DNA of 64,000 nucleotides from contig NC_132888.1 of the NCBI RefSeq assembly GCF_030463535.1, positions 2,143,470-2,207,469 of the forward strand. Direction: 5' to 3'. The stretch's first letter is position 1. Each line of letters starts with the position of its first letter. A program made the position numbers and the translations under genes. This DNA is from Salminus brasiliensis. Taxonomy: Eukaryota; Chordata; Actinopteri; Characiformes; Bryconidae. Positions 8,155 through 62,812 of the stretch are shown piece after piece. The notes under the pieces are model-generated. The model did not search any database and was not told where the DNA came from. It worked only from the letters and a program-made list of their open reading frames with translations.

Positions 8155-8545
8155 CACTAAATGGACAAAAGTATTTGGACACCTGCTCATTCATTGTGTC
8201 TTCTGAAATCAAGAGTGTTAAAAAGAGCTGATCCTGCTTCTGTTGAAGTAACTGTCTCCACTGTCCAGAGAAGAATAATACTTTCTACTAGATTTTGGAG
8301 AATTAAGGCATTGCTGTGAGGATTTGATTGCATTCAGAGACAAGATGTTTGGATGATTGATCACCACCCCAACTTCATCATCCCCAACTCTCCAACTCTC
8401 TAGAGAACACAGCTCTTCCACTGCTCCACAGCTAAATGCTAGGGGGTTTTATACCCCTTTAGCCCATGCCTGGTGCCAATAGGTTCCTGTTTATGTTTCA
8501 GAGGGTCCTATTCTATTGGCAGTACTTGTCTACACCCAAACATAA
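8155..8545 (+). mobile_element. MITE family A copy upstream of espnl
   Basis: It starts CACTAAATGGACAAAAG and keeps the internal words GTTGAAGTAACTGTCTCC, TTTGATTGCATTCAG, TTATACCCCTTTAGCCCA and CCTATTCTATTGGCAGTA. The right terminal repeat is missing. It lies 230 bp before the espnl start codon, so it overlaps the likely promoter or 5' UTR. Confidence 0.8.
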
Positions 8546-8774
8546 TGTGACTTTTCACCAACCTGTCCCTTTAACTATAGCATCTCAACCTGTCCCTCGC
8601 TTCCCTCACTCAGTTCAGCTGACCATCTGTCCCTCAGTCAGGCATTCTGGCTGCAGCTCAGGTGTCATTTTTAGAGAAAGGGATGGGGGTGTGGTGAGGT
8701 CCAGAGAGACAGGACAGGACCCCTGTCAGTTCAGTCCCAGTAGAGCAGAGCAGCACAGTGCAGGGCAGGGCAGT

Positions 8775-9068
8775 ATGGTTCTCCACAGGGTGATCCAGGC
8801 TGCCCGTGAGGGTGATCTTGAAGCTCTGAGGGTCCTGCACCAGTCTGGCCACCTCAGCTCAGCCATCACTGACCCTCAGGGGGCCACGCCCGTCCACCAC
8901 GCAGCCCGCTGTGGCCAGCTCGACTGCCTGCGCTTCCTTTTGACGGAGGCCGGTCTCCAGGGCCACTGTCGTGCCATGAATGGAGCCACGGCAGCACACG
9001 ATGCTGCAGCAACTGGACACACTCAGGAGATGCGGTGGCTTCTGGGACATGGAGACTGTGGGATTGAG
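8775..9068 (+). CDS. espnl: espnl coding exon 1
   Basis: 98 codons, phase 0 end at GAG|gtgagg. N-terminal ankyrin repeats: [34 protein letters not shown] and [22 protein letters not shown] begins only about 16 bp after the donor. Confidence 0.93.
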
Positions 9069-12000
9069 GTGAGGTGAGATGTGTGCAATATGGACAGAAG
9101 TATTGGGACGCCTGCTCATTCACTGTTTCTTCTGAAATCAGGGGCATTAAAAAAAGTTTCTCCTGCTTTTGTTGGAGTAACTGTCTTTCTACTAGATTTT
9201 GGTGGAGCCTTGCTGTGAGGATTTGATTGCATTTAGCAACAAGAGCGTTAGTGAGGTCAGGATGTCATCCCAAAGGTATTGGATGGAGCACCACCATCAT
9301 TCCAGAGATTACAGCTCTTCCACTGCTGGGGGGGTTTATACCCCTTTAGCCCACGCCTGGCAATAAGCATGGTGGTTTATCCAGAGAGACCTATTCTATT
9401 GGCAGTATTTCTCCACAGGTGCAAGTTAAAGTAGCTAAATGCATTAATTACAAGGAGTGTCCACAAACATTTGGGCATATAGTGTCATTCTGCAACCATA
9501 GCAAGTAGCAAGGTCTTGGTTCTGGAGTCCTCCTGCCCTGCATAGTTTGCTGTAAATGGGACATCCAGCCTGAAACTTCAACTTCATGGTGATAACGAGA
9601 TCCTACAGAGCTCCCAAACTGTTCAGGTAGCAAGATCCTGGTGGTGTAGAGCAGGGGTGGGGAACTGAGGGCCGATGTCCTACACACTGTTCTGATCCCC
9701 CTGCTCTGACATACCAGCTAAGAAAAAAGAAATGTACCACCAAAAATGAGCGAAGACATTGCAGAACCACTTTTGGATCCATGAAGAACCACAAACCTTC
9801 AGACTCACAAACTAAAAACCAAGCTAAAAGCGGTTCTGCTGTGGCCTCACTTAAGAAACTCTTTGGATCTCCTTTATTAAGCAGGAAAATCACCAAACTG
9901 TGCAGGCATGTGGCCTACAGCACTGGAGTTCTCCACCCTTGGTGTAGAACCTAATAAACACACACAGACTCCATTCAGATTCCTAGCACCAGCCTTTCTT
10001 CTTCCAAAAAAGCTCCTCCCACCTTTAAGACATCTTTGCAGTGGTGGTTTACCTTGACTTTAACTTGCCTGGAGATGATTGCAGCAGCACTGCAGGAGGT
10101 AAGCAACTCTTTGGCTGGAGTGAACCTTCAGTAAGCTCCTTCCTGAGTGTTTATGCAGGACTGTGATGCTCCTGGACTGAGAACCTCTACTGGTCTACCA
10201 GCTTATTTTCTTCATTTTTATAATAAATTTTGACATTTTTATAAATTACAGTTCTTGAAGAAGCAGAATTAGTCTAGAAAACACTGCAAAACATTATACT
10301 GTACAAAGGCTGCTTGCATGTTCATGAGTGGGTAGGACCAGCAAGCTTTTTGCTTGGTTTATAAGGATTATTTAAGAATTGTGAAATCTCATGTTCAATT
10401 TGTAGTGGTGAATGATATGATATTGATATTTTTGTGTATCATTCAAAATTATTTAATCAATACACAACATTTATGGCTTTATTCTATAAAACCTTAGTAT
10501 TATGTTTTCATACATTTCCAGTCTTTAAGGCATTCATCTGACCACTAGAAACAGTAATATTAAACTGTAAATACAAAACACAACCACAAAAACACATTTT
10601 TACAAATAGTCGGTCGCACCACCTGACATTATTTGGAGGGTAAAATTAAAAACATAGTCAAAAATGACTTTATACACTTCAAAATGTAATTTCACCAATG
10701 AAACACACTGTCCTGGTCTCAGAAATATGCATTATGTCCAAAATGTATGACCCATTGACGGTGATGCTGTTAATGGTTCACTGGTTTTGAACTTTGGCTC
10801 CACCGAATTATAAAAAGGGGTGGCATCACCCCATTGTTTACTTTTACACATTAGTGTCATAAATAAGGAGCTTCTACGCCGCCGTTATCCACTGATGCAT
10901 GTGCCATAATGCACCTGTTCAGGATCAGGATGGGGAAGGAGCCACAGCCCTGCACCTGGCCACGAGGTTCGGCCATGCTGAGGCGGTGCAGTGGCTGCTG
11001 TCTGCAGGGGGCAGCACCGAGGCAGAAACGGACTGCGGAGCACTTCCGGTCCACTACGCTGCTGCCAGTGGACATCTCACCTGTCTCAAACTGCTTGTGT
11101 CACACTCCCCAAGGTGAGACGACCACACCTGGACACCTGCACATGCATGCAAGTATTCAGCAGCCTCAGGTAATGTTCACAACCAACATCAGGACAGGAT
11201 CTGGGATTTTCAGCACAATTAATGAATGGTCAACAGAATGGTCAGACTAGTTGGAGCTGACAGAAAGGCTACAGTAGCTCAGATGACCTCTCTGTACAAC
11301 TGTGGAGAGCAGAAAAGCAGCTCAGACTAAACACCACCACCACCTCCAACCTTGAGGAGGATACAGAGCTCCACCAGCAGAAGAACCACGGCAGGTTCCA
11401 CTTCTTTCATCCAAGAACAGAAAGCTGAGGCTGCAGTGGCTCACCAGCTCAACACTGGACACCTGAAGACTGGAGGAGAAGCGTCGCCTGGCCTGATGAG
11501 TCTGGATTGTTTGAGGAGCACAGATGGTAGAGTCAGAACTTGGTACCAATGGACCCAACCTGCTTTGTGTGAGCAGCCCAGGCTGGTGGAGGTGGTGGTG
11601 TAATGGTGTGTGCAAGTGCATGAGAGTGTGTGTGAGAGAGTGTGTATTGTCCATGCCCTGGGTAGCACACAAAGGCAGTCGCTGAGAGTCACGTTGAAGG
11701 CACTCTGGAGCGGTGCGTTAGTGATGCCAGGCCAGGGGGGGTCAGACATATGTTAAACGGATCCTCTTGGCTCAGAGCTTAATAATACATGAACTGCTTC
11801 CTACCTGCCACATGTCAGCACCTGTGCTTATATACTGGACCAGGCTCCACCCCTCATCACTCCCATGTCTAGTACCTATGATCGTCTAAGGCAGGTTGGG
11901 CTCATGGATTCATGCTGTTGGCTCCAAGTTCTGACTCTACCATCTGTGCTCCTCAAACAATCCAGACTCATCAGGCCAGGCTACGCTTCTCCTCCAGTCT

Positions 12001-12773: not shown

Positions 12774-15700
12774 ATTCTGCACGGGATGGAAATTCCTCTG
12801 TGGGATGCCCCGATAGGGAGAGATCCAGGTATATTTTAATGGATCGGGTACTGGCTATTTTAATCCCAATCCAGTTCCTAGTCTTTGTTTTTACCACGGC
12901 CTTCAGAGCGCCATCTATTGTCCTCAAGACGCCACTAAAGGACATTATCCCCAGCCGGCTGCTGTAGCAGCAGTGTGGACGTTCTCAGAATGAATGGTCA
13001 GACTAGTTGGAGCTGACAGAAAGGCAACAGTAGCTCAGATGGCCACTCTGTACAACTGTGGAGAGCTGACCATTCACAGAACTGCTTGCTCACCTTTCTC
13101 TGTTTATAAACCAGCACTGAAGAACCCGTTCAGAACAGAGAGGAGGCTAACGCTAATGCTAACACACACACACGCTATAGAAACCCCAATCACACACACA
13201 GCACATTCACTATAAACCAGTTACTACACACCAGTAGACCAACAACCACAGATACCAGTCCAGAGCGTGTACCACTACACACTCATACACACACACACAC
13301 AGGAAGTGATCAACCCAGAAGTCTGATTATAGAATCTGATCCTGAAAATAAAAGATTTTACTGAAGCCATTAATCAGCAGCTCGTCTGATCTAAACTGTG
13401 GAGCTGGATTATTATTTATACACACAGAGACCAGATTGGATTGGATCAATATCGTCTGATACTCAGCATTAAGAGACTCGGATCGGATCAGGGGGATAAA
13501 ATAAAGTGTTGTAAAGTTTATTAATTACACTTGCCTTGTACACTCATTGACCTTTTATCAGAAACACTCATCAAACACACTAATCAGCCATAACATTAAA
13601 AAGTCAAAAGTCAATATCATTGATGATATGGTTTCAGTGGCTCCTGTTAAAGGGTGGCTCTATTAGGCAGCAGGTGGATGGTCAGTTCTTGAAGGTGATG
13701 AAGGCACAAGGAGGCACAAGGGAGGCCTACACAATATTAGGCAGGTGGTTTTAATGTTTTGGCTGATCGGTACCTACGCCTCTGCTCCTCAGGCTTCCTT
13801 CACAGATGTAGACGTGTCCTGTCAGGATCAGAATGGGGCCACTGCTCTGCACTTTGCTGCCAGTGAGGGTCACCACCGCATCCTGGAGCGCCTGCTGCTG
13901 ATGGGGGCCAGAGTTCTGCGGGACAGCTGGGGTGGGACACCTCTGCATGACGCTGCAGAGAATGGAGAACTGGAGGTGATGCACTCAGTGGAGGTGTAAA
14001 ACATGCATGTGTGAAATTTGACCAATTGATTTGAAGGTGGGGATTCAAATGAACTATTATTATTAATAGTTATAATTATGAATAATTCTTTTATATAGAT
14101 ATTTTTATGTTTACTATGCAAATATGTTCTCCAGTCACATTTGTGGATTCAGAGTAAATAGGACTAATGGGTACAGCCAACCTGTATGTATTCCCACCCC
14201 ATCACTAGTGAGGGTGAGACCAATACACACCCCCTCTGACACGTGCACAGCCAGCCACACCTCTCTCTCGAACTGCTGCTGATGCGACATCACCAGGCAA
14301 CCACAGTCCACAATCCACAATCACAGTGACAGCCCGTTGGACCACCCAGGGCCCACTCATGGTGAAATTTTGCTAGCTCATAATTCATTGAACTTAAAGG
14401 TGCCCTAGAATAAACAATGAATAATCTTGGCCTGGTTTCATAACAATGAGAGTTTGGTAAATGAAATAGATTTCCCATGAACCAGAGCGGTAAAACAGGC
14501 CAATTGCAAAACCCCTACACTGTTACATCACAGTCCTGACTCTTTATATTAAGCTCAAGCTCAAGCATAAAGCTAATCCAGTCGACTGGCTACGATGTCT
14601 TCAGCTAGCTGAGCGCACACAGCACACCCCCATGTTTTGCACCTCGATTGTGATTGTAACTGATCCTCCCTCAGTGCTGCCGAGTCTTGTTGGGAAGCCA
14701 TGTCAGCCCACTGGAGAAGGATGTGGACGGCTTCAGTGCAGTCGACCTGGCGGAGTACAATGGCCATGGAGACTGTGCCGCACTCCTGCGCTCCACTCAG
14801 GTGGGTTACGGAATTGTCTTCTGCCACAAATCTAGTCCGCTATTGATGATCTGGTCCCAATGGCACCTGTGCAGAGTGGATATGCAGGTGATGTGTTGGA
14901 AACAGGGTCAGGACATCTCCACCAAAACATCAGGCAGGTCCAGTATGCAGTGGTCAGTACCTACCTAATGTGCTCCAAGGAAAGACAACGGAGTCATGGG
15001 CAGAGTCAAGGCTCACTGATGCTCATGGAGGTCCCACCCACCTCATCCAACTTACAGGACTTAAAGGATCTGCTGCTGCAAAGCCTTTATATACGATACC
15101 TCAGCACCAGATGCCTCATCATTCCATAAATTATAATAGAAAGGTGTGAAAAGTATTGACACTCATTCCTCAGGTAGAAGTGAGTGGAGATACGAGGGTT
15201 TAAAAGACTTCTATAGAAGCTGAAGTATCGACTGAAGCTTTTTACTCCAGTAAAAGTGTAAAAGTACTGGTTTCAGAACAACTTCAAGTAGAAAAGTAAA
15301 AGTAATGGAAGGAAAACAAAGACTGAAAGCTTAGGCCGCGCCACAGGGGTCTATAGTGCACTCACAGGATTTATCTGGAGAGGGTTTTTATTGATGACGA
15401 GCCGGAATGAAAACTAAGGGAAATGAAATAGGAGACTGAGGCTGTTTTTAAAATGGAAGGAGGAGAAAGTTCAGATAATTGGGGGAAAATGTGAGAAGTA
15501 GAAGTAAGGTAACAAAGTATTTGTACCATTCACCAATAAATATTTGTATTTTTATCTTGATATCTTGGTGCTTTTGAGGGCCCCCTGGTGACGCTGGGGC
15601 CCTAAGCAGCGGTATAATTCCTGTATACCCTGGGCCGGCTCTGGAGCTTGAGTTTGGAAAGTTAGGTGTTTCTAATAAAGTGGACATTGAGAGTATCTCA

Positions 15701-18700: not shown

Positions 18701-20866
18701 AATGACAGTAAAATCATTAAAACTTTTAAAAACTTTAGATTTTTAATGACCATAACATTAAAACCAGGTGAAATAAACAACACTGAGTTCTAGTGGCTCC
18801 ATCTGTCAAGGGGTGGATCTACATATTAGGCAGCAAGTGAACGGTCAGTTCTTGAAGGTGATGAAGCGAAATGGAAAAAAATGGACAAACGTAAGAATCT
18901 GAGACACTGACAAGAACCAGACTGTAAGGTTCTAGATAAACGTCTGGGTCAGAACATCTCCACCAGAACATCAGGCAGCAGGTCTTGAGGTGGGGTGTTC
19001 TCAGTATGCAGTGGTCAGTACCTGCCAAAAGTGCTCCAAGGAAGAATAACTGGTGAACTGGTGACAGGGTCATGGGCTCCCAGGGCTCAGTGATGCATAT
19101 GGGAGGCAAAGGCTAGAGTGTCGGGTCTGATCCCACACAGGAGCTACTGCACAATGCAATATCAGGTGGTTTTAATGTTGTGGCTGATCTGCCTGCTGCA
19201 GGTGGCCAGTGTCCATATAGGATAGCATTGCCAGTTCAATGTATATGCAGGACTGAGATACATGATGATACTGAGAAGATCATCACTACAGTATTATTAA
19301 AAATTGCTATAATTTTGTATAACGTAGTATAAAAATATCAAAAGTATTTATTTAATATTCGATATTATTTATTAATATTGTCTGATGAAGACGGTAGACT
19401 GTGTTCTGGGTCTGGCTGATTATGTGTGTGTTAGAGAGTGTGTATCTGTGGATGATTGCTGTAGTGTAGCAGGCATTGCCCTCCCTCTGTCAGACTGGGA
19501 TTTGATCCCCCACATGGGCCAGAACACTACACCACTGAGTCACTTTAAATAAGTGTAAATACAGCCTTCGACCGCACGCGCTGTGTGGAGTTTAAGGCCC
19601 TCCATCACGTACAGGCAACCTGACCTGTCCGATACAGGGGCGGGGCTCTATAGGCGGCCTTGGTGTAGCGGAATAGGTGGAGGTGTACTGTACATGAAGA
19701 CTGAAGGTTCAGATCCTGCACCCAGTTCTATATCATATCTTTAACCATGTCCAAATGTTTGCGGACACCCCTTCTATGCATGAATGCATTCAGCTACTTT
19801 AAGTTGTACCATTGCTGACACAGATGTGCAAATGCACACACACAGCTGGTCTAGTCCCTGTAGAGAAAGAAGTGCTGCCAATAGAATAGGACTATCTGCA
19901 GGAGAGTCAACATCATGACCACCATGCTGCCTAATGCCAGGCGTGGGCTAGTAGAGGGGTATTGAGGAGCTGTGGAGCAGTGGAAGAACTGTGCTCTCTG
20001 GAATGATGGTAGTGGAGCCTTCTTCTTCTCTGGACAGTAGAGACAGTTACTCCAACAAAAGCAGGATCAGCTCTTTTAATCCCCTTGATTTCAGAAGAAA
20101 CTATGAATGAGCAGGCATCCAAATACTTTTGTCCCTATATTGTAGATTATTAATAAGCATGGCTTATTAAATCCTGGACTCACAACCTAGCTTTGTTTTT
20201 ACCGAAATGAGGAAACAAACTGACGAAACAATGACTGAGAGAGTGTCCCAATACTTTTGTCCCTATAGTGTAAATGTACACTGGGCAGGGTCTTCTACAG
20301 TGTCATGCTGATGTGTGTTATCTAACTCCCTAACTAATTCCCTATGTTGTTTCTTAGCCTCAGGAGACAGTGGGCACTAACCTTCCCCCAGAGGTGATTC
20401 TCATAGAAGAGGAAAGGACCCCTTTCCTGGACATTACTGACCAGTCCAGTGACCAAAGCCCTGCTGCTGTGATGGAGATTAGCAAGGTAATGAATGAGCT
20501 TATGGCCATAAGGATGTGGTGGAAGGGGAGATTCATCTTGTGGAATCCAATGCTGTGAGAAATTGATATTTATATAAATAAATAAAGTTATAGACATAAA
20601 AGACATTAGAAAGTCCACCAGGGAAATGAAGCAGATGGACATGCTGTAAAAGATCAGGCATATTCCGAATCCCTGTGTTTCTGGTGTGGTCTCAGCAGCC
20701 GGTGAAGGAGGTGCCTCCTCAGCCTCGCATCTCCCAGACATGTCCTGACCTGTCTTCTGCACACAGTTCCTTCACACCATCTGCCAGAGCTGGAGCCGGC
20801 TCCATCCAACATGTGCAAGTAGCCTCTGCAGGTGAGGACCTATAGTGTACTACAATGAGTCATTAT

Positions 20867-23900: not shown

Positions 23901-25475
23901 ATACCCCCCCTGACCTTTAGATTTTTGTTATTTCACATTTTTTAAATGTAGCTGTGGATCCAGTTCTTCAGTACTTCAGTATTGTGATTCTTTCATTCCT
24001 GCCAGGATAACGGCGACAAATGTATGGACGGCTGGAGATACTCAAAGATCCACGATGCTATTTTGGGCCCCTTCGGTGAGCTGCTAACAGAGGACGACTT
24101 GGTGTACCTGGAGGGTCAGATTGAGACCGTTTCACTTCAGAAGAAGTGCCAGGCCTACGAACTGGAGTTAGCCCGTCTGGTTGAGGAACTGCGAGTTATC
24201 CTCCCGACTCCGATCGTCAATATCACTGTCAATACTCGCCAGCTGCCAGATACAGTGGACTCTCTGGCCCTGCCGGTGTGGTGCAGCCGCATTTCAGGCA
24301 TCGTAAAGAGCATGAGCCTGCTTCTGAACAACCTTGCCGAGAGAAATGGAGAATCGGAGGACGGCATCTGTAAGATCCCCAACAAAGAACTGGCTTCCGT
24401 CTTCGCTGTGCAGCCAGAAAGACAAAGCTCTGTCCGGGGCAGAAGGGAGAAGGTGGAGATGGAGATTCAGATGTCTGGCGTTTCCGTGCGAAATCTGAGG
24501 TCCAATTTCGAAGGTCAGATAGGAAAGATTTACCCGTTCTCTGGGTTGTCAAACAACCTATCCAAGTCCACCTCCAGCACTAAAGAGCAGACGAACAATT
24601 CCAGCTGCCCGGTGAGTGTCGTCCAAGACGCCGGTGTCCTCAACGGCAACAGCGATGTCCTCAAGGAACCAGCTAAAGTGATGGAGACCACCAGCTTGCG
24701 CAAAGAGCGGATCGTTGTCCTGTTCTTAAGCCACTGGAAGAAGTCAGCCTACGCTATCTCAATGCGAGCCAGACTGAGGCAAGACATCGACACGCAGAGA
24801 TCCGCGGAGAACTACCTCAAGAACCACACCACGACATCTCCAGTTTCCCCGACGAGGAACGGCTCATTGTATCACCTCTATAAACAAAGGATGGCTATCG
24901 GCAAGATGATTCATAACTGGAGGGCCATCACCTTGGGAGTTCCCTCTCGCCAGATTCGGAGCCTCCGGAGAAAACGGATCACCTACTCCCCGGAGCACTT
25001 CTTGCCACGAGTGGACGGTGCCCCCGTGTCATACGACAGCCTGACTCTCGACCTCTTCATGCTGGGCTATTTCCACATCCTGGAGCAGGACCTGCCTGCT
25101 GAAGAGAGGAAGATGAGGCACCTGCTCTGCTTTGAGGTCTTCGACCATATTGGAGCGTTCCCCTGGGAAACAGTGAGGGAGTTTCATCGAGCCGTGCTGA
25201 GAGACATCGAAGCTGGAGAGCGGGACTGGAAGGACGGGTTTGAAGACGTCAAGGCCCAGTTCTTCGGGACGAAAAGGGTCCCTGCATCCTTGAAGCCTCA
25301 GACGGCCGCTGGGGTTAAGGCGGATGGGAACACGGCGCAAAACGGCATGGTCCACAAGGCAGGTGGGAACACGGACTTCTTGTGTTTCAACAATGATGAG
25401 ATCTGTAAGTACATCGACCGTAGTTTTGCCTTCTGGAAGGAGAAGGAAGCTGAGCTGTTTGACTTTGAACGCTAG
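8775..25475 (+). CDS. espnl: Espin-like protein (ESPNL), complete gene, 10 coding exons
   Basis: Espnl is an actin-bundle protein of hair-cell stereocilia and a cargo of class III myosins; espins bundle parallel actin. Exons: 8775-9068, 10923-11113, 12496-12682, 13793-13975, 14675-14800, 20364-20486, 20696-20831, 21497-21615, 22356-22529, 24006-25475. All have AG/GT borders and matching phases, giving 1000 codons, close to the roughly 1005 I recall for human ESPNL. Residues 1-327 form about ten ankyrin repeats ([49 protein letters not shown]). Residues 328-453 are a low-complexity linker. Residues 454-511 hold the espin-family motif [16 protein letters not shown]. Residues 512-1000 are the ESPNL-specific C-terminal half ([35 protein letters not shown]). 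The ATG has A at -3 and G at +4. I see no stop or frameshift. Short linker exon 8 is the least certain. Espin itself is excluded by the large ESPNL-type last exon. Confidence 0.95.
9085..9484 (+). mobile_element. MITE family A, both ends present, in espnl intron 1
   Basis: Left end GCAATATGGACAGAAG, right end GTGTCCACAAACATTTGGGC then ATATAGTG. The two ends are related as imperfect inverted repeats. Internal deletions make it about 400 bp. It sits directly behind the exon 1 donor. Confidence 0.85.
9485..10922. other. Rest of espnl intron 1
   Basis: Nothing coding. A short interspersed motif GCAGGGGTGGGGAACTGAGG lies at about 9651 and AT-rich unique-looking sequence at 10200-10850. Confidence 0.6.
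10923..11113 (+). CDS. espnl: espnl coding exon 2
   Basis: Starts [18 protein letters not shown] after ttcag and ends in phase 2 at CCAAG|gtgaga. Two ankyrin repeats. Confidence 0.93.
11165..11600 (+). pseudogene. Tc1-like transposase remnant (+)
   Basis: Broken frames give [21 protein letters not shown] text, then [14 protein letters not shown] text in other frames. This order matches the DNA-binding and first catalytic part of Tc1-like transposases (ADRKATV..., W(S)DES). Frameshifts and the short length show it is dead. It lies in espnl intron 2 and is inverted relative to 11900-12335. Confidence 0.7.
11900..12335 (-). pseudogene. Tc1-like transposase remnant (-), inverted partner
   Basis: The reverse complement matches 11165-11600 over most of its length (for example the words around GGTAGAGTCAGAACTTGG and GCTGAGGCTGCAGTGG). 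On the minus strand a fragment reads [18 protein letters not shown]. The two copies can pair as a stem with a loop of about 300 nt. Confidence 0.7.
12496..12682 (+). CDS. espnl: espnl coding exon 3
   Basis: Phase 2 start, phase 0 end at CTG|gtgagt. Encodes [20 protein letters not shown] and [20 protein letters not shown], two near-consensus ankyrin repeats. Confidence 0.94.
12731..12771 (+). repeat. (GT)n microsatellite
   Basis: About 20 GT units, 48 bp after the exon 3 donor of espnl. Confidence 0.95.
12772..13500. repeat. Interspersed repeat fragments, including a third Tc1 piece
   Basis: 12985-13065 repeats the Tc1-like words GAATGGTCAGACTAGTTGG and GCTGACAGAAAGGC seen at 11230. The flanks (GGGAGAGATCCAGGTATA at about 12818; GACTCGGATCGGATCAGGGG at about 13475) look like one interspersed element interrupted by others. 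No gene was seen. Confidence 0.5.
13581..13771 (+). mobile_element. MITE family B, short copy next to espnl exon 4
   Basis: It starts TAATCAGCCATAACATTAAA and ends GGTGGTTTTAATGTTTTGGC then TGATCGG. These ends are inverted repeats of each other. Internal word GGTCAGTTCTTGAAGGTGAT is shared with copies at 18840 and 52270. The exon 4 acceptor lies about 20 bp after its end. Confidence 0.85.
13793..13975 (+). CDS. espnl: espnl coding exon 4
   Basis: 61 codons, phase 0 at both ends. Contains [20 protein letters not shown] and [15 protein letters not shown]. Its acceptor lies about 20 bp after the end of a MITE. Confidence 0.94.
13976..14674. other. espnl intron 4
   Basis: Nothing recognised apart from AT-rich sequence at 14040-14130. 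No repeat family was identified. Confidence 0.5.
14675..14800 (+). CDS. espnl: espnl coding exon 5
   Basis: 42 codons, phase 0 at both ends, ending CAG|gtgggt. Encodes [16 protein letters not shown] and [20 protein letters not shown], the last ankyrin repeat. Confidence 0.92.
14850..15120 (+). mobile_element. MITE family B, internal fragment
   Basis: Contains ACATCTCCACCAAAACATCA, TATGCAGTGGTCAGTACCTA, GTGCTCCAAGGAAAGACAAC and AACTTACAGGACTTAAAGGA, all found in order in other B copies. Both ends are missing. Confidence 0.7.
15143..15366 (+). repeat. Dispersed 225-bp repeat, copy 1
   Basis: Nearly identical to 28168-28394 (shared words AGTGGAGATACGAGG, TTTTACTCCAGTAAAAGTGT and GCTTAGGCCGC). 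Both copies are followed within about 200 bp by AAGTAAGGTAACAAAGTAT. Confidence 0.85.
16100..16650. repeat. Decayed transposon fragments in espnl intron 5
   Basis: GGGTCATTGTCATGTTGCAT resembles the antisense of a transposase stretch also seen at the right edge of the window (GGGTCGTTATCATGTTGG). 16540-16640 shares GGATTTGATTGCATTCAG with family A. No intact frame remains. Confidence 0.4.
16651..17170. other. Unassigned part of espnl intron 5
   Basis: Two overlapping short open frames (to 110 codons, 16688-17020) have no recognisable motif. Not called as exons because the phases do not fit between espnl exons 5 and 6. Confidence 0.4.
17171..17541 (+). mobile_element. MITE family B copy
   Basis: Left end ACTAATTAGCCAAAACATTA, right end TAGTTTTAATGTTATGGCTA, with the internal B words (TCTCAGCATGCAGTGCCTAC, AACTTACAG). 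About 370 bp. Confidence 0.8.
17542..18747. other. Unassigned part of espnl intron 5
   Basis: No repeat family or exon recognised. Mostly AT-rich with a GC-rich patch near 17830-18080. Nothing supportable. Confidence 0.4.
18748..19192 (+). mobile_element. MITE family B copy, near full length
   Basis: Left end GACCATAACATTAAAACCAG, right end AGGTGGTTTTAATGTTGTGG then CTGATC, about 445 bp. It is the longest B copy in the window and gives the internal order of the family. Confidence 0.85.
19645..19730 (+). repeat. tRNA-like (SINE-like) fragment
   Basis: GGCGGCCTTGGTGTAGCGGA could hold an A box, and about 40 bp on AAGGTTCAGATCCTGC resembles a B box. No cloverleaf or CCA-type end can be drawn, so this is at best a tRNA-derived repeat. 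Confidence 0.35.
19746..20146 (-). mobile_element. MITE family A copy (reverse)
   Basis: Starts ATGTCCAAATGTTTGCGGAC and ends ATACTTTTGTCCCTATATTG, i.e. the family in reverse. A small separate tail of the same family (CCAATACTTTTGTCCCTATA) lies at 20239-20272. Confidence 0.85.
20364..20486 (+). CDS. espnl: espnl coding exon 6
   Basis: 41 codons ([18 protein letters not shown]...), phase 0 at both ends, acidic linker after the ankyrin domain. It follows a 5.6-kb intron. Confidence 0.8.
20696..20831 (+). CDS. espnl: espnl coding exon 7
   Basis: Starts [20 protein letters not shown] and ends in phase 1 at GCAG|gtgagg. Pro/Ser-rich linker. The acceptor may be 20696 or, 3 bases later, 20699 (tandem cagcag). 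Confidence 0.78.
20870..20905 (+). repeat. (ATA)n microsatellite
   Basis: A run of ATA/AAT triplets in espnl intron 7. Confidence 0.9.
20990..21411 (-). mobile_element. MITE family A copy (reverse), one end missing
   Basis: Starts inside the family at CTCTCTGGAGCAGATCAACA and ends CCAATACTTTTGTCAAAATA then GTG. About 420 bp, in espnl intron 7. Confidence 0.85.
21497..21615 (+). CDS. espnl: espnl coding exon 8
   Basis: It follows gcttttacag. Phase 1 in and phase 0 out at ACC|gtaaac. Encodes [20 protein letters not shown] and a basic stretch. The phase fit on both sides supports it. No family motif was recognised. Confidence 0.72.
21779..22313 (-). mobile_element. MITE family A copy (reverse), near full length
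   Basis: Both ends are present: ACTATATGTCCAAATGTTTG on the left and CAATACTTTTGTCAATATAG then TG on the right, about 535 bp. It ends 43 bp before the espnl exon 9 acceptor. Confidence 0.88.
22356..22529 (+). CDS. espnl: espnl coding exon 9
   Basis: 58 codons, phase 0 at both ends (AAAAG|gtaaac). Contains [20 protein letters not shown] and then [15 protein letters not shown], the conserved espin/ESPNL motif. Confidence 0.93.
22630..22646 (+). repeat. (CA)n microsatellite
   Basis: Short CA tract in espnl intron 9. Confidence 0.8.
22950..23830. repeat. Dispersed fish repeat in espnl intron 9
   Basis: AAAGCAGCTTCACAAAGATC, GGAAAAACTCCCTCAGGTCT and AGAAACCTTGAGAGGAACC match the 6393-6570 block. 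The right part (TTCCGGAGTTGGGGAGCC, GAAAGCTCTTCC) appears to belong to the same high-copy element. Not coding. Confidence 0.6.
24006..25475 (+). CDS. espnl: espnl last coding exon (10)
   Basis: 489 codons and TAG, starting after tgccag. Encodes [49 protein letters not shown] and [17 protein letters not shown]. This is the large ESPNL-specific C-terminal region, in one open exon. Confidence 0.95.
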   Translation, partial: DNGDKCMDGWRYSKIHDAILGPFGELLTEDDLVYLEGQIETVSLQKKCQAYELELARLVEELRVILPTPIVNITVNTRQLPDTVDSLALPVWCSRISGIVKSMSLLLNNLAERNGESEDGICKIPNKELASVFAVQPERQSSVRGRREKVEMEIQMSGVSVRNLRSNFEGQIGKIYPFSGLSNNLSKSTSSTKEQTNNSSCPVSVVQDAGVLNGNSDVLKEPAKVMETTSLRKERIVVLFLSHWKKSAYAISMRARLRQDIDTQRSAENYLKNHTTTSPVSPTRNGSLYHLYKQRMAIGKMIHNWRAITLGVPSRQIRSLRRKRITYSPEHFLPRVDGAPVSYDSLTLDLFMLGYFHILEQDLPAEERKMRHLLCFEVFDHIGAFPWETVREFHRAVLRDIEAGERDWKDGFEDVKAQFFGTKRVPASLKPQTAAGVKADGNTAQNGMVHKAGGNTDFLCFNNDEICKYIDRSFAFWKEKEAELFDFER

Positions 25476-28167: not shown

Positions 28168-28394
28168 AAAGGTGTCAAAAGTATTCACACTCACTCCTCA
28201 GGTAGATGTGAGTGGAGATACGAGGTTTTAAAAGACTTCTATAGAAGCTGAAGTATCAACTGAAGCTTTTTACTCCAGTAAAAGTGTAAAAGTACTGGTT
28301 TCAGAACGACTTCAAGTAGAAAAGTAAAAGTAATGGAAGGAAAACAAAGGCCAAAAGCTTAGGCCGCTCCACAGGGGTCTATAGTGCACTACAG
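28168..28394 (+). repeat. Dispersed 225-bp repeat, copy 2
   Basis: Near-identical to 15143-15366, with only scattered substitutions and small indels. Confidence 0.85.
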
Positions 28395-31559: not shown

Positions 31560-40814
<9,255 letters not shown>

Positions 40815-45553: not shown

Positions 45554-46606
45554 TTTTCCGCTAGATGAGATATACAGTAGAAGCAGTAGTCACGTGACCA
45601 TGATTTTGATGGTCATCAGGAGTTAACCATGAGATAGAATCACTGGAAACCTTAAATCTTGTGCTTGTAAATCTGCTGACAGCTCAAGAACGCTGCGAAC
45701 AGTTCAGTCTTAGCGAGTTTAATCATCATAAATATAGTCTTCATTTTCATATTTCTCAGTTTGAGATGATTAGAGAAATATTATGATATTATTTGACTCA
45801 TTTCTGGGGTTTTTTTTACTTGTTTGGAGTGATTATTTAGTGAAATCTGGCAGATTATTTTGCTAAATTTAAAAATAATAAATAATTCAGATTTGGTCAG
45901 AGATTGTGATTAAAACAAGCAAATAAATGAAAGTAAATAAAATAAAAGTGAATAAAATGACTTAAAAACTAAAACAAATGGTAGAAATATGTTAAAAATG
46001 AGTTGAAAATGTCTGTAATATTTTTTCTAACAATTTAAAAAAGAGAAATATCAGATATTTAGACTTGATTTAAGAGGATTTCACTTGCGGAGGTGATTTT
46101 GTTGCAGTAAAATCACAGGATTGAATAGGTTTAGACTTAATTCACCTCCTACTTCTCTCACACTCTCATATTTAACCTGTACTGTCCAGCCTTTTACGTC
46201 ATTACCTTCCACTTCTGTGACACTAGTGTGCCTTCTGTTATTCTAACACCAAAATGCAAAGCTCTCATTGTATGGCTAGAACCCGAGAACAGGGACGTGA
46301 AGGGTGGCGGTCATTTGCAAAGCGCACTGAAGTGACCCCTGCGCCCGGGTGGTTTCATGGCGTTTGTGTGATGAAATAACTCCTTTAATGAAATCCTGTG
46401 TTCACTCTGTCCATCAGCGAGGTTGAAAGGTGTAGCAGGTCCAGTGTGAGAGGATGCTGAGTGTGTGTATGACCAGACGCACCGCGGTGCCGTGAGCTCG
46501 CGGGGCATGCTGGGACTGTGGCCATGGGCTTGAGCAGAGCAGTGCAGTTGGCTCTCTATTCATTCTGTATGGACATTTATGAGCATGACATCCGTCTGAA
46601 AAGATC

Positions 46607-46612
46607 AATAAA
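46607..46612 (+). terminator. rab6b: Candidate poly(A) signal (rab6b)
   Basis: AATAAA in AAAAGATCAATAAACTCTG with a GT-rich stretch 20-30 nt on. It lies about 95 bp before the first 42-bp minisatellite array. Confidence 0.4.
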
Positions 46613-46703
46613 CTCTGTGTTAATACCACACATCTGTGTGCCTTCTCTTCCTGCCCTTAGCATGGCTTTATCAGTGCTGTGAAAAAGTGTTTGCCCCTGT
46701 CTA

Positions 46704-47700
46704 GGGGGTTTCTAATAAAGTGGCCAGTGAGTGGAAGCATAAGGTGTTTCTAATAAAGTGGCCATTGAAGAAGCACAAGGTAGGGGTTTCTAATAAAGTG
46801 GCAATACAAGAAGCACAAGGTAGGTGTTTCTAATAAAGTGGCCAGTGAGTGGAAGCACAAGGTAGGTGTTTCTAATAAAGTGGCCAGTGAGTGGAAGTAC
46901 AAGGTAGGGGTTTCTAATAAAGTGGCCAGTGAGTGGAAACACAAGGTAGGGGTTTCTAATAAAGTGGCCAGTGAGTGGAAGTACAAGGTAGGGGTTTCTA
47001 ATAAAGTGGCCAGTGAGTGGAAACACAAGGTAGGTGTTTCTAATAAAGTGGCCAGTGAGTGGAAACACAAGGTAGGGGTTTCTAATAAAGTGGCCAGTGA
47101 GTGGAAGCTTAAGGTATGTGTTTCTAATAAAGTGGCCAGTGAGTGGAAACACAAGGTAGGGGTTTCTAATAAAGTGGACAGTAATGGAGCTATAAGATAG
47201 GGGTTTCTAATAAAGTGGCCAGTAATGGAGCTATAAGATAGGGGTTTCTAATAAAGTGGCCAGTGAGGGGAAGCACAAGGTAGGGGTTTCTAATAAAGTG
47301 GACAGTAATGGAGCTATAAGATAGGGGTTTCTAATAAAGTGGCCAGTAATGGAGCTATAAGATAGGGGTTTCTAATAAAGTGGCCAGTAATGGAGCTATA
47401 AGATAGGGGTTTCTAATAAAGTGGCCAGTGAGGGGAAGTACAATGTAGGTGTTTCTAATAAAGTGACCAGTGAGTGGAAACACAAGGTAGGGGTTTCTAA
47501 TAAAGTGGACAGTAATGGAGCTATAAGATAGGGGTTTCTAATAAAGTGGCCAGTAATGGAGCTATAAGATAGGGGTTTCTAATAAAGTGGCCAGTAATGG
47601 AGCTATAAGATAGGGGTTTCTAATAAAGTGGCCAGTGAGGGGAAGTACAATGTAGGTGTTTCTAATAAAGTGACCAGTGAGTGGACGTTTATAATAAAGT
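46704..47700 (+). repeat. 42-bp minisatellite, array upstream of the aire promoter
   Basis: About 24 units of TTTCTAATAAAGTGGCCAGT followed by GAGTGGAAGCACAAGGTAGG or by AATGGAGCTATAAGATAGGG (two sub-types). Nearly every unit holds AATAAA on the + strand. Open frames on both strands arise because 42 is a multiple of 3. Confidence 0.97.
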
Positions 47701-48086
47701 CTTCAGTAGTGGAGTAGTGACCCTCAGTGTGGGGTTCCCCTGCCACAAACACTTCAGTTGCACTTTTGGAAGGGCAGGTGGGCAGAACAGAGAGAGAGTC
47801 AAAGTCTCCTTTTGGTCAACTGTGGACTTTCCAGAATTCTACTCAGAAATGAGCCTGTGTGAATCTGCTAAACTGTAAACGACTTTGACCCTCCGGCAGT
47901 GTGTTAAAACACCTCCCTCAGGACCTACATCTCAGCATTCCAGCTGCAGTTTCCCAAGCAGCTTCACCATCAGAGCGTCCCTGAAGGCCTAAGCAGGTTA
48001 ACGGCCCCTCAAGCCCAAAGACCACCAGAGATTCCACCTCTTCTCACACAGACAGGTGGGATAAGCAGCAGAGCCATCAAAGCAGA
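47701..48086 (+). promoter_or_regulatory. aire: Unique island between arrays, aire upstream region
   Basis: About 490 bp of non-repeated sequence (47701-48190) separates the two 42-bp arrays and contains the TATA box and the first exon of aire. No specific factor site is certain. Confidence 0.5.
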
Positions 48087-48092
48087 TATAAA
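48087..48092 (+). promoter_or_regulatory. aire: Candidate TATA box of aire
   Basis: GATATAAAGC, about 30 bp before the presumed start site near 48117, followed by a short leader that ends in a strong splice donor. Confidence 0.6.
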
Positions 48093-48116
48093 GCTGACCC
48101 AGTGGAGAGTGAGGAA

Positions 48117-48155
48117 CTGCCTCATCACAGCTCATCACCACCACCACCAGCAGCG
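48117..48155 (+). other. aire: Probable non-coding exon 1 of aire
   Basis: Leader with CATCACCACCACCACCAGC ending AGCAGCG|gtgagtac, an excellent donor. The next strong acceptor is ctactttctag at 51994, six bases before the aire ATG. No ATG in the leader. The start site is estimated from the TATA box. Confidence 0.6.
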
Positions 48156-48189
48156 GTGAGTACATTCTCTTCACCCAACACCAGTTTTC

Positions 48190-51100
48190 TGTAGTAGCAC
48201 AGGGTAGGTGTTTCTAATAAAGTGGCCAGTGAGTGGAGACACAAGGTAGGGGTTTCTAATAAAGTGTCCAGTGAGTAGAAACACAAGGTAGGTGTTTCTA
48301 ATAAAGTGTCCAGTGAGTAGAAACACAAGGTAGGTGTTTCTAATAAAGTGTCCAGTGAGTAGAAACACAAGGTAGGGTGTTTCTAATAAAGTGGCCAGTG
48401 AGTAGAAACACAAGGTAGGGTGTTTCTAATAAAGTGGCCAGTGAGTGGAAGCACAAGGTAGGTGTTTCTAATAAAGTGGCCAGTGAGTAGAAACACAAGG
48501 TAGGGTGTTTCTAATAAAGTGGCCAGAGAGGGAAAGTACAAGGTAGGTGTTTCTAATAAAGTGGCCAGTGTGTGGAAGCACAAGGCAGGTGTTTCTAATA
48601 AAGTGGCCAGTGAGTGGAGACACAAGGTGGGGTGTTTCTAATAAAGTGGCCAGGGAGGGAAAGCACAAGGCAGGTGTTTCTAATAAAGTGGCCAGTGAGT
48701 GGAGACACAAGGTAGGGTGTTTCTAATAAAGTGGCCAGGGAGGGAAAGTACAAGGTAGGTGTTTCTAATGAAGTGTCCAGTGATTGGAAGTATAAGGTAG
48801 GTGTTTCTAATAAAGTGGCCAGTGAGTGGAAGCACAAGGCAGGTGTTTCTAATAAAGTGGCCAGTGAGTGAAGACACAAGGTAGGGTGTTTCTAATAAAG
48901 TGGCCAGTGAGTGGAAGCACAAGGTAGGTGTTTCTAATAAAGTGGCCAGTGAGTGAAAGCACAAGGTAGGGGTTTCTAATAAAGTGGCCAGTGAGTGGAA
49001 GCACAGGGTAGGTGTTTCTAATAAAGTGGCCAGTGAGTGAAGACACAAGGTAGGGTGTTTCTAATAAAGTGGCCAGTGAGTGGAAGCACAAGGTAGGTGT
49101 TTCTAATAAAGTGGCCAGTGAGTGGAAGCACAAGGTAGGTGTTTCTAATAAAGTGGCCAGTGAGTGGAAGCACAAGGTAGGGGTTTCTAATAAAGTGGCC
49201 AGTGAGTGAAGACACAAGGTAGGGTGTTTCTAATAAAGTGGCCAGTGAGTGGAAGCACAAGGTAGGTGTTTCTAATAAAGTGGCCAGTGAGTGAAAGCAC
49301 AAGGTAGGGGTTTCTAATAAAGTGGCCAGTGTGTGGAAGCACAAGGCAGGTGTTTCTAATAAAGTGGCCAGTGAGTAGAAACACAAGGTAGGGTGTTTCT
49401 AATAAAGTGGCCAGTGAGTGGAAGCACAAGGTAGGTGTTTCTAATAAAGTGGCCAGTGAGTGGAAGCACAAGGTAGGGTGTTTCTAATAAAGTGGCCAGT
49501 GAGTAGAAACACAAGGTAGGGTGTTTCTAATAAAGTGGCCAGGGAGGGAAAGCACAAGGCAGGTGTTTCTAATAAAGTGGCCAGTGTGTGGAAGCACAAG
49601 GCAGGTGTTTCTAATAAAGTGGCCAGTGAGTGGAAGCACAAGGTAGGTGTTTCTAATAAAGTGGCCAGTGAGTGGAAGCACAAGGTAGGTGTTTCTAATA
49701 AAGTGGCCAGTGAGTAGAAACACAAGGTAGGGTGTTTCTAATAAAGTGGCCAGGGAGGGAAAGTACAAGGTAGGTGTTTCTAATAAAGTGGCCAGTGTGT
49801 GGAAGCACAAGGCAGGTGTTTCTAATAAAGTGGCCAGTGAGTGGAGACACAAGGTGGGGTGTTTCTAATAAAGTGGCCAGGGAGGGAAAGCACAAGGCAG
49901 GTGTTTCTAATAAAGTGGCCAGTGAGTGGAGACACAAGGTAGGGTGTTTCTAATAAAGTGGCCAGGGAGGGAAAGTACAAGGTAGGTGTTTCTAATAAAG
50001 TGTCCAGTGATTGGAAGTATAAGGTAGGTGTTTCTAATAAAGTGGCCAGTGAGTGGAAGCACAAGGTAGGTGTTTCTAATAAAGTGGCCAGGGAGGGAAA
50101 GCACAAGGCAGGTGTTTCTAATAAAGTGGCCAGTGAGTGGAGACACAAGGTAGGGGGTTCTAATAAAGTGGCCAGTGAGTGAAAGCACAAGGTAGGTGTT
50201 TCTAATAAAGTGGCCAGTGAGTGGAAGCACAAGGTAGGTGTTTCTAATAAAGTGGCCAGTGAGTGGAAGCACAAGGTAGGGGTTTCTAATAAAGTGGCCA
50301 GTGAGTGAAGACACAAGGTAGGGTGTTTCTAATAAAGTGGCCAGTGAGTGGAAGCACAAGGTAGGTGTTTCTAATAAAGTGGCCAGTGAGTGAAAGCACA
50401 AGGTAGGGGTTTCTAATAAAGTGGCCAGTGAGTGGAAGCACAAGGTAGGGGTTTCTAATAAAGTGGCCAGTGAGTGAAGACACAAGGTAGGGTGTTTCTA
50501 ATAAAGTGGCCAGTGAGTGGAAGCACAAGGTAGGTGTTTCTAATAAAGTGGCCAGTGAGTGAAAGCACAAGGTAGGGGTTTCTAATAAAGTGGCCAGTGT
50601 GTGGAAGCACAAGGCAGGTGTTTCTAATAAAGTGGCCAGTGAGTAGAAACACAAGGTAGGGTGTTTCTAATAAAGTGGCCAGGGAGGGAAAGTACAAGGT
50701 AGGTGTTTCTAATAAAGTGGCCAGTGTGTGGAAGCACAAGGCAGGTGTTTCTAATAAAGTGGCCAGTGAGTGGAGACACAAGGTAGGGTGTTTCTAATAA
50801 AGTGGCCAGGGAGGGAAAGCACAAGGCAGGTGTTTCTAATAAAGTGGCCAGTGAGTGGAGACACAAGGTAGGGTGTTTCTAATAAAGTGGCCAGGGAGGG
50901 AAAGTACAAGGTAGGTGTTTCTAATAAAGTGTCCAGTGATTGGAAGTATAAGGTAGGTGTTTCTAATAAAGTGGCCAGTGAGTGGAAGCACAAGGTAGGG
51001 GTTTCTAATAAAGTGGCCAGTAAGTGGAAGCACAAGGCAGGTGTTTCTAATAAAGTGGCCAGTGAGTGGAGACACAAGGTAGGGGTTTCTTATAAAGTGA

Positions 51101-51958
51101 CCAGTGAGTGGAAGCACAAGGTAGGGGTTTCTAATAAAGTGGCCAGTGAGTGGAAGCACAAGGTAGGGGTTTCTAATAAAGTGTCCAGTGATTGGAAGTA
51201 TAAGGTAGGTGTTTCTAATAAAGTGGCCAGTGAGTGGAAGCACAAGGTAGGGGTTTCTAATAAAGTGGCCAGTGAGTGAAAGTATAAGGTAGGTGTTTCT
51301 AATAAAGTGGCCAGTGAGTGGAAGCACAAGGTAGGGGTTTCTAATAAAGTGGCCAGTGAGTGGAAGCACAAGGTAGGGGTTTCTAATAAAGTGGCCAGTG
51401 AGTGGAAGCACAAGGTAGGGGTTTCTAAAGTGGCCGGTGTGTGGAAGTTTGTGATAAAGTGGCCAGTAAGTGGAAGCACAAGGCAGGTGTTTCTAATAAA
51501 GTGGCCAGTGAGTGGAGACACAAGGTAGGGGTTTCTTATAAAGTGACCAGTGAGTGGAAGCACAAGGTAGGGGTTTCTAATAAAGTGGCCAGTGAGTGGA
51601 AGCACAAGGTAGGGGTTTCTAATAAAGTGTCCAGTGATTGGAAGTATAAGGTAGGTGTTTCTAATAAAGTGGCCAGTGAGTGGAAGCACAAGGTAGGGTG
51701 TTTCTAATAAAGTGGCCAGTGAGTGAAAGTATAAGGTAGGTGTTTCTAATAAAGTGGCCAGTGAGTGGAAGCACAAGGTAGGGGTTTCTAATAAAGTGGC
51801 CAGTGAGTGGAAGCACAAGGTAGGGGTTTCTAATAAAGTGGCCAGTGAGTGGAAGCACAAGGTAGGGGTTTCTAAAGTGGCCGGTGTGTGGAAGTTTGTG
51901 ATAAAGTGGCCAGTAGTGGAGCTATAAGGTAGGTGTTTCTAATAAAGTGGCCAGTAAA
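48190..51958 (+). repeat. 42-bp minisatellite filling aire intron 1
   Basis: About 89 tandem units of 42-43 bp (AAGGTAGGTGTTTCTAATAA then AGTGGCCAGTGAGTGGAAGC and AC). It occupies nearly all of the 3.84-kb inferred intron (48156-51994). Variants repeat in order with 85-bp and 169-bp periods (two and four units). Both strands are open for long stretches; these are not genes. Confidence 0.98.
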
Positions 51959-52000
51959 ATTAGCCTCAGTCCTGTTCTCCTCTCTACTTTCTAGTCCGGA

Positions 52001-62812
<10,812 letters not shown>

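Follow-up and report, generated by a model that had tools for sequence, protein, structure and literature searches.

Intron 1 of aire carries a tandem array of a 42-bp unit in which a splice-donor-like word stands beside an AATAAA, and a second block of the same repeat lies upstream of the gene's promoter. We favor, with a probability of roughly 0.7, the reading that the array is a transposon-derived minisatellite grown by block duplication, whose RNA signals were inherited from its founder and are probably near-silent. In the window, by which we mean the whole 64-kb stretch of DNA analysed, the array, its two blocks, the motif counts, the solo copies of its core, the block duplications and the predicted fold were established directly. 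Nothing that we tested clearly singles out the intron over the upstream block. An earlier sequence-only reading had described intron 1 as a field of U1-guarded premature poly(A) sites; most of what it observed is right, though the array extends further and the donors are poorer than first stated.

A 42-bp minisatellite flanking the proposed aire promoter

TRF detected a single 42-bp tandem family in the 64-kb window, at 46708-51447 and 51447-51894, its longest row having period 42 and 112.7 copies. We anchored units on GTTTCTAATAAAGTG with up to 3 substitutions, plus three named degenerate forms, and tiled 115 units with the consensus GTTTCTAATAAAGTGGCCAGTGAGTGGAAGCACAAGGTAGGT: 25 in the upstream block (starts 46708-47687) and 90 in the intron block (starts 48210-51935). 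With 115 anchored head-to-tail copies and a unit in the 10-100 bp range, the array is a minisatellite. The 90 intron units (67 of 42 nt, 20 of 43 nt, one of 41 nt and two of 26 nt) bear out the ~89 copies previously claimed for intron 1, and the intron limits proposed then, 48156-51994, are exact, the donor and acceptor being read directly in the sequence. The array had, however, been taken as a feature of intron 1, and the 25 further units at 46708-47717, 5' of exon 1, had been missed; as this second block precedes the promoter/exon-1 island, the array is no peculiarity of the intron. Stretches of the two blocks are 86-87% identical over ~1 kb, with a longest common exact word of 88 bp. The island between them had no self-match in the window (blastn, E 1e-3). 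The features of the region are as follows.

46607..46612, + strand: AATAAA of the likely 3' end of the upstream gene (putative assignment), with TGTA upstream and T-rich DNA downstream
46708..47717, + strand: upstream block of the minisatellite (25 units), flanked by the likely 3' end of the upstream gene and by the aire promoter
47718..48195, + strand: unique island between the blocks, 478 bp, with the TATA-like box and the proposed non-coding exon 1
48086, + strand: TATA-like ATATAAA, putative promoter
48118..48155, + strand: proposed aire exon 1 (5' UTR), its putative start ~30 nt past the TATA-like box
48156..51994, + strand: aire intron 1, donor GCG/GTGAGT at 48156 and acceptor CTACTTTCTAG ending at 51994, use predicted
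48196..51955, + strand: intron block of the 42-bp minisatellite, 90 units, two of them shortened to 26 nt
51995..52148, + strand: aire exon 2, with the ATG at 52001 and the start of the HSR domain; 3' end approximate
52677..52850, + strand: aire exon 3, rest of the HSR domain; ends approximate
60063..60203, + strand: PHD finger stretch of aire, matching the AIRE PHD structure 1xwh (E 2.7e-19)

The gene is identified as aire because its predicted protein has both an HSR domain and a PHD finger of the AIRE type. Exons 2 and 3, joined by hand, matched HSR PF03172 (E 5.6e-25), and 60021-60224 matched PF00628 (E 3.2e-8). Among solved structures, the HSR stretch alone matched only Sp-100 (E 0.01); the PHD stretch matched CHD4 (1e-20) slightly better than AIRE 1xwh (2.7e-19), with SP140 far behind (1.2e-10). 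A SAND candidate at 56935-57177 gave no Pfam match. Exon 1 is proposed as a used exon from its sequence, and its donor at 48156 precedes the first anchored unit by 54 nt and is not part of the array.

Several further features of the neighborhood were recorded. Tandem arrays make up ~49% of 46700-62000 over aire (sum of TRF spans), comprising the 42-mer blocks, a 92-mer at 55911-56606, a 26-mer at 59190-59916 and a 75-mer at 60520-61825. The last, 17 copies of a 75-bp unit with 95% matches, is open for >200 aa in + and - frames; it sits ~0.3 kb after the aire PHD stretch and is probably intronic. Upstream of aire, and on the same strand, lie ankyrin repeats (8463-9077) and a Ras-family GTPase stretch (36254-36463), presumably of an espin-like and a rab6-like gene, respectively. 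A 495-aa frame at 23988-25475 gave no Pfam match. The GC skew of the + strand is 0.49-0.50 in both blocks (46708-51955) and -0.15 in the promoter island; given a skew of ~0.5, R-loops downstream of the aire promoter are conceivable.

Dispersed core and block duplication

Two solo copies of the repeat core lie elsewhere in the window.

15664..15691, + strand: solo copy of the core (GTGTTTCTAATAAAGTGGACA...)
53015..53052, + strand: solo copy of the core (GTGTTTCTGATAAAGTGGACAGG...), downstream of aire exon 3

The copies at 15664 and 53024 have 23 bp in common at 95.7% identity. Additionally, the primer CTAATAAAGTGGCCGGTGAGTG of a (TA)4(CA)7 locus of a toad matches the unit at 21/22 bases. The core around AATAAA is thus dispersed, on few cases (2 solo copies in 64 kb and the one toad primer), and the family is represented here by three loci of the window and by that primer. 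Since the solo copies and the primer contain this core, AATAAA most likely came with the dispersed founder. We take the dispersed element to be, perhaps, an L2-type sequence ending in a microsatellite; a LINE body was not identified next to the copies. The DNA adjoining the two solo copies showed no match between them (blastn, 1 kb upstream of each). A 38-bp piece of another dispersed repeat (94.7%) sits 0.65-0.76 kb upstream of both and blurs the history of the solo copies.

Exact 26-base and 22-base core patterns had 0 matches in viral contigs, and the 22-base pattern had 0 in genome contigs; the two collections are described as covering viruses and prokaryotes, so that a zero in them means little. 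In literature full text, aataaagtggcc is printed in one paper and taataaagtgg in five. Among the titles and opening abstract lines listed for fish aire gene structure, and for minisatellites in relation to intronic polyadenylation or splicing, none concerned such an array, subscription papers lying mostly outside the coverage. Other dispersed repeats are present in the window: the copies of 228 bp at 15140-15367 and 28168-28394 are 94.7% identical and probably represent a recent one, and another, 84-88% identical, occurs at 52248-52446 (between aire exons 2 and 3), 18825-19023 and 62209-62362.

The intron contains an exact self-repeat of 274 bp (offset 1268) and the upstream block one of 205 bp (offset 207); both indicate recent block duplication, and the 274-bp repeat, in the one sequence examined, makes polymorphism of array length among individuals likely. 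The 110 full units of the array collapse to 37 distinct sequences.

We infer the identity of the founder, the splicing and the silence of the signals as follows. A dispersed transposon-like sequence with GGTGTTTCTAATAAAGTGG, near the aire promoter, would, by amplification, have given rise to the 42-bp minisatellite that flanks the promoter/exon-1 island, and the array would have grown and been homogenised via duplication of multi-unit blocks, recently too. AATAAA would stem from the founder and the donor-like AAGGTAGG from the other half of the founder unit, both being copied along. Nascent aire RNA would then fold into a row of hairpins that expose AAUAAA in their loops and are joined by linkers carrying the donor-like word. 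Splicing would start from the authentic exon-1 donor, given its first place in the transcript and the strength of the authentic acceptor, and the array would be excised in full with the intron. Its internal signals would be mostly silent, and U1 bound to the donor-like words may contribute passively to this.

Unequal exchange between the two direct-repeat blocks would delete or duplicate what they enclose, so the blocks may recombine to remove or double the aire promoter and exon 1. The dose of aire sets immune tolerance, and such blocks around the promoter of a tolerance gene predict structural alleles.

Donor-like words, AATAAA and their possible effects

The intron has 83 AATAAA on the + strand and 0 on the - strand, and all 25 upstream-block units keep the motif. 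An 8-of-9 donor, AAGGTAGGT, had been ascribed to each unit; only 29 of the 90 intron units have it, while 41 have AAGGTAGGG, with 7/9 matches, 14 the GC donor AAGGCAGGT, two AAGGTGGGG and one AGGGTAGGT, none being recognised in 3. The 25 upstream units carry AAGGTAGGG (8), AAGATAGGG (8), AAGGTAGGT (3), AATGTAGGT (2) and two single forms, and 2 carry none. U1-complementary AAGGTAGG(T/G) is present in 70/90 intron units. Measured distances confirmed the proposed order and spacing of donor and AATAAA: from donor +1 to AATAAA there are 12 nt at 61 of 86 donor-like sites and 13 nt at 20, and the next donor-like site begins 24 nt past AATAAA in 81/83 cases.

On a vertebrate donor PWM, AAGGTAGGT (6.01) lies above the exon-1 donor (5.13) and AAGGTAGGG (4.85) below it; the donors of exons 2 and 3 scored 3.51 and 0.73. 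Sites of at least 4.85 number 70 in the intron block. Predicted U1 duplexes reached -10.0 kcal/mol for AAGGTAGGT, -9.7 for AAGGTAGGG and -5.5 for the GC form, compared with -9.1, -9.3 and -5.6 for the donors of exons 1-3. AATAAA together with a donor scoring at least as high as AAGGTAGGG occurred in 0 of 16,746 42-mers from the rest of the window (overlapping, step 7, both strands) made tandem, of which 561 had only AATAAA and 242 only the donor. Similarly, none of 9 other arrays, hand-picked from the TRF list, had both motifs in one unit. Because the copies descend from one founder, the pairing is one amplified coincidence, not 83.

Tests for selection used 110 full units (37 distinct), leaving out three truncated and two edge units. 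AATAAA is intact in 23/23 full upstream units versus 82/87 full intron units, and the seven intron units without it represent 4 forms, 3 of them seen twice. A GT donor is present in 73/87 intron versus 14/23 upstream units (Fisher P 0.02); the 8 upstream AT-donor units are only 2 distinct types, so this difference may be one event. AATAAA was kept in 14/14 units following a GC-donor unit and, in the upstream block, in 8/8 units following an AT-donor unit; it persists behind both, so guard and signal do not co-vary. Neither motif was significantly spared by substitution: AATAAA took 3 of 33 events versus 4.7 expected (P 0.29), and the donor word 7 of 33 versus 7.1. Among the 37 distinct units, columns 1-15, which hold the anchor word, contain 7/555 non-consensus cells versus 102/999 elsewhere. 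These 15 columns, around AATAAA, took 5/33 substitution events versus 11.8 expected (P 0.008, GC-weighted 0.03), a depletion that is not significant once the best window is searched for (P 0.13-0.17). Collectively, these tests are negative or weak and do not clearly point to selective retention of the motifs in the intron; a mild constraint on the AATAAA block, alike in both blocks, is possible.

We compared the context of the 83 intron AATAAA with that of 63 other + strand AATAAA. Downstream G+T content was 0.54 versus 0.46, and T content 0.23, below the 0.30 of the others. TGTA occurred within 60 nt upstream of 1% of intron AATAAA, 16% in the upstream block and 22% of the 63 others. The GT-rich downstream element that had been claimed is present, with G+T raised; its GTGTTTC part, however, is base-paired in the predicted hairpin, and T is lower.

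Of four sense stretches folded, three were from the intron (126, 132 and 101 nt; z -5.23, -7.11 and -3.85) and one from the upstream block (126 nt; z -4.14); one antisense stretch had z -1.25. As dinucleotide shuffles destroy the repeat, we also shuffled the unit around the two motifs, which were kept in place, and made the result tandem again; the predicted energy of four consensus units was reached by 0/400 of these shuffles. Per nucleotide, three intron kilobases were predicted to fold at -0.34 to -0.37 kcal/mol, their antisense at -0.16 to -0.19 and the upstream block at -0.28, against a mean of -0.28 and a best of -0.36 for 19 other kilobases; the predicted fold of the array is strong, yet within the range of this window. 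The hairpin comes from a near-palindrome centred on GGCC with 20/37 self-complementary positions, above the 95th percentile of shuffles (18) and below the 99.9th (22); the TAGAAACAC variant has 24/37. In the predicted fold AAUAAA lies in the loop and AAGGUAGG in the linker, while GUGUUUC, half of the GU-rich element, forms the 5' arm of the stem, where its pairing would weaken the poly(A) site. Both motifs are mostly unpaired in the real stretches (predicted 0.71 and 0.74 versus an array mean of 0.43). Against motif-keeping shuffles, AAUAAA exposure was not raised (0.66 versus a mean of 0.76) and donor exposure not clearly so (0.77 versus 0.58; reached by 14.5%).

Pairing of the arms was counted in 98 of the 115 units, after exclusion of 3 truncated units and of 14 with gaps in the arm columns. 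The arms pair in at least 96/98 units at 6/8 positions; the remaining two positions are paired in 69 and 77 units. The 5' arm is nearly invariant except at one position, and the 3' arm changes mainly by transitions that face U or G and preserve pairing anyway, which is no proof of selection on the hairpin. Such a stem, as modelled, may favor slippage and array growth.

Could the units instead be functional poly(A) sites that U1, bound to the donor-like word, keeps in check, so that U1 shortage relative to transcription, or a long array, would end aire transcripts in intron 1? The layout and spacing of the motifs, their predicted unpaired state and the U1 duplexes of the main donor types, close to that of the real exon-1 donor, fit this, and base-paired U1 is known to suppress signals within introns (PMC6946686, in excerpt). 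We nevertheless consider it unlikely: the motifs are equally present upstream of the proposed exon 1, where aire transcripts would not extend (read-through from the upstream gene could reach them), guard and AATAAA do not co-vary, TGTA is scarce, downstream T is low and the downstream element base-paired, and exposure is not above that of motif-keeping shuffles for AAUAAA, nor clearly so for the donor. A passive effect is possible, given U1 pairing like that of the exon-1 donor, an unpaired donor word and higher G+T. It is improbable that a repeat with a donor word beside AATAAA spreads in sense within genes as copies born U1-guarded, that its ~90 units form an attenuator in aire with a leak set by U1 supply and array length, and that recombination between the blocks, by deleting or doubling promoter and exon 1, makes aire dose differ among individuals.

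We also doubt strongly that the ~70 good GT donors act as decoys that compete with the exon-1 donor and, by copy number, extend the 5' UTR cryptically or slow splicing. Their scores bracket that of the exon-1 donor, and human factor VII intron 7 offers a precedent; in that same precedent it is the most upstream donor, here that of exon 1, that wins (PMC6627357, in excerpt). The AG within the units, moreover, has a poor pyrimidine tract (45%, versus 85% at the true acceptor), for which we also rejected unit-internal pseudo-exons.

That the upstream block is a terminator, its 25 backup poly(A)-like sites stopping same-strand read-through into the aire promoter, is very improbable: it begins ~100 bp past the AATAAA at 46607, all of its units have AATAAA and both genes lie on the + strand, but intron 1 has these units as well, and termination there would be harmful.

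Three other candidates were rejected. Frames open for up to 282 aa on the - strand follow from the 42-nt unit, and the 20 intron units of 43 nt break frame, so a coding role was dismissed. No four-run G-quadruplex motif was found with GGG (loops 1-12) or GG (loops 1-7), G4Hunter giving 0.46, and 46000-53200 had 0 Rfam matches at gathering score.

Under the preferred reading of a near-silent minisatellite, 83 sense AATAAA tolerated in one intron would show the weakness of a bare AATAAA. If the sites were ever used, the array would be a natural experiment on U1 protection, probably one that varies in length.

Comparison with known systems

By analogy, the closest precedent is the repeat of human F7 intron 7, a 37-bp minisatellite in which, we presume, every unit is donor-like. 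The aire units agree in this, 73 of the 87 full intron units having a donor-like word with GT. Both are intronic tandem repeats with donor-like words, and the copy number of F7 is variable; of the F7 donors, only the most upstream is used normally (PMC6627357, in excerpt). The authentic F7 donor lies in the first repeat, whereas the aire donor at 48156 lies outside the array. The F7 passage, as excerpted, names no poly(A) signal in the unit (PMC6627357), whereas nearly each unit of the aire array has AATAAA.

The array resembles U1 telescripting of intronic poly(A) signals in having a donor-like word close to AATAAA in an intron. Known telescripting cases rest on RNA data, whereas the aire array is known from sequence, and units outside the gene share its motifs. 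A further parallel is the SVA in TAF1, reportedly the insertion of X-linked dystonia-parkinsonism. Like the aire array it is intronic and repeat-bearing, and it disturbs host mRNA processing (PMC13144358, in excerpt); unlike the array, it is a single insertion of a different repeat with a known disease effect.

The aire-region copies differ from L2 LINE tails in that no LINE body was identified next to them, and the L2 link is tentative. They are like transposon-derived minisatellites and L2 tails in having a short core at scattered loci, including one toad microsatellite locus, and a predicted stem-loop; the 3' tails of stringent-type L2 LINEs (UnaL2, ZfL2) likewise carry a stem-loop (PMC5135761, in excerpt).
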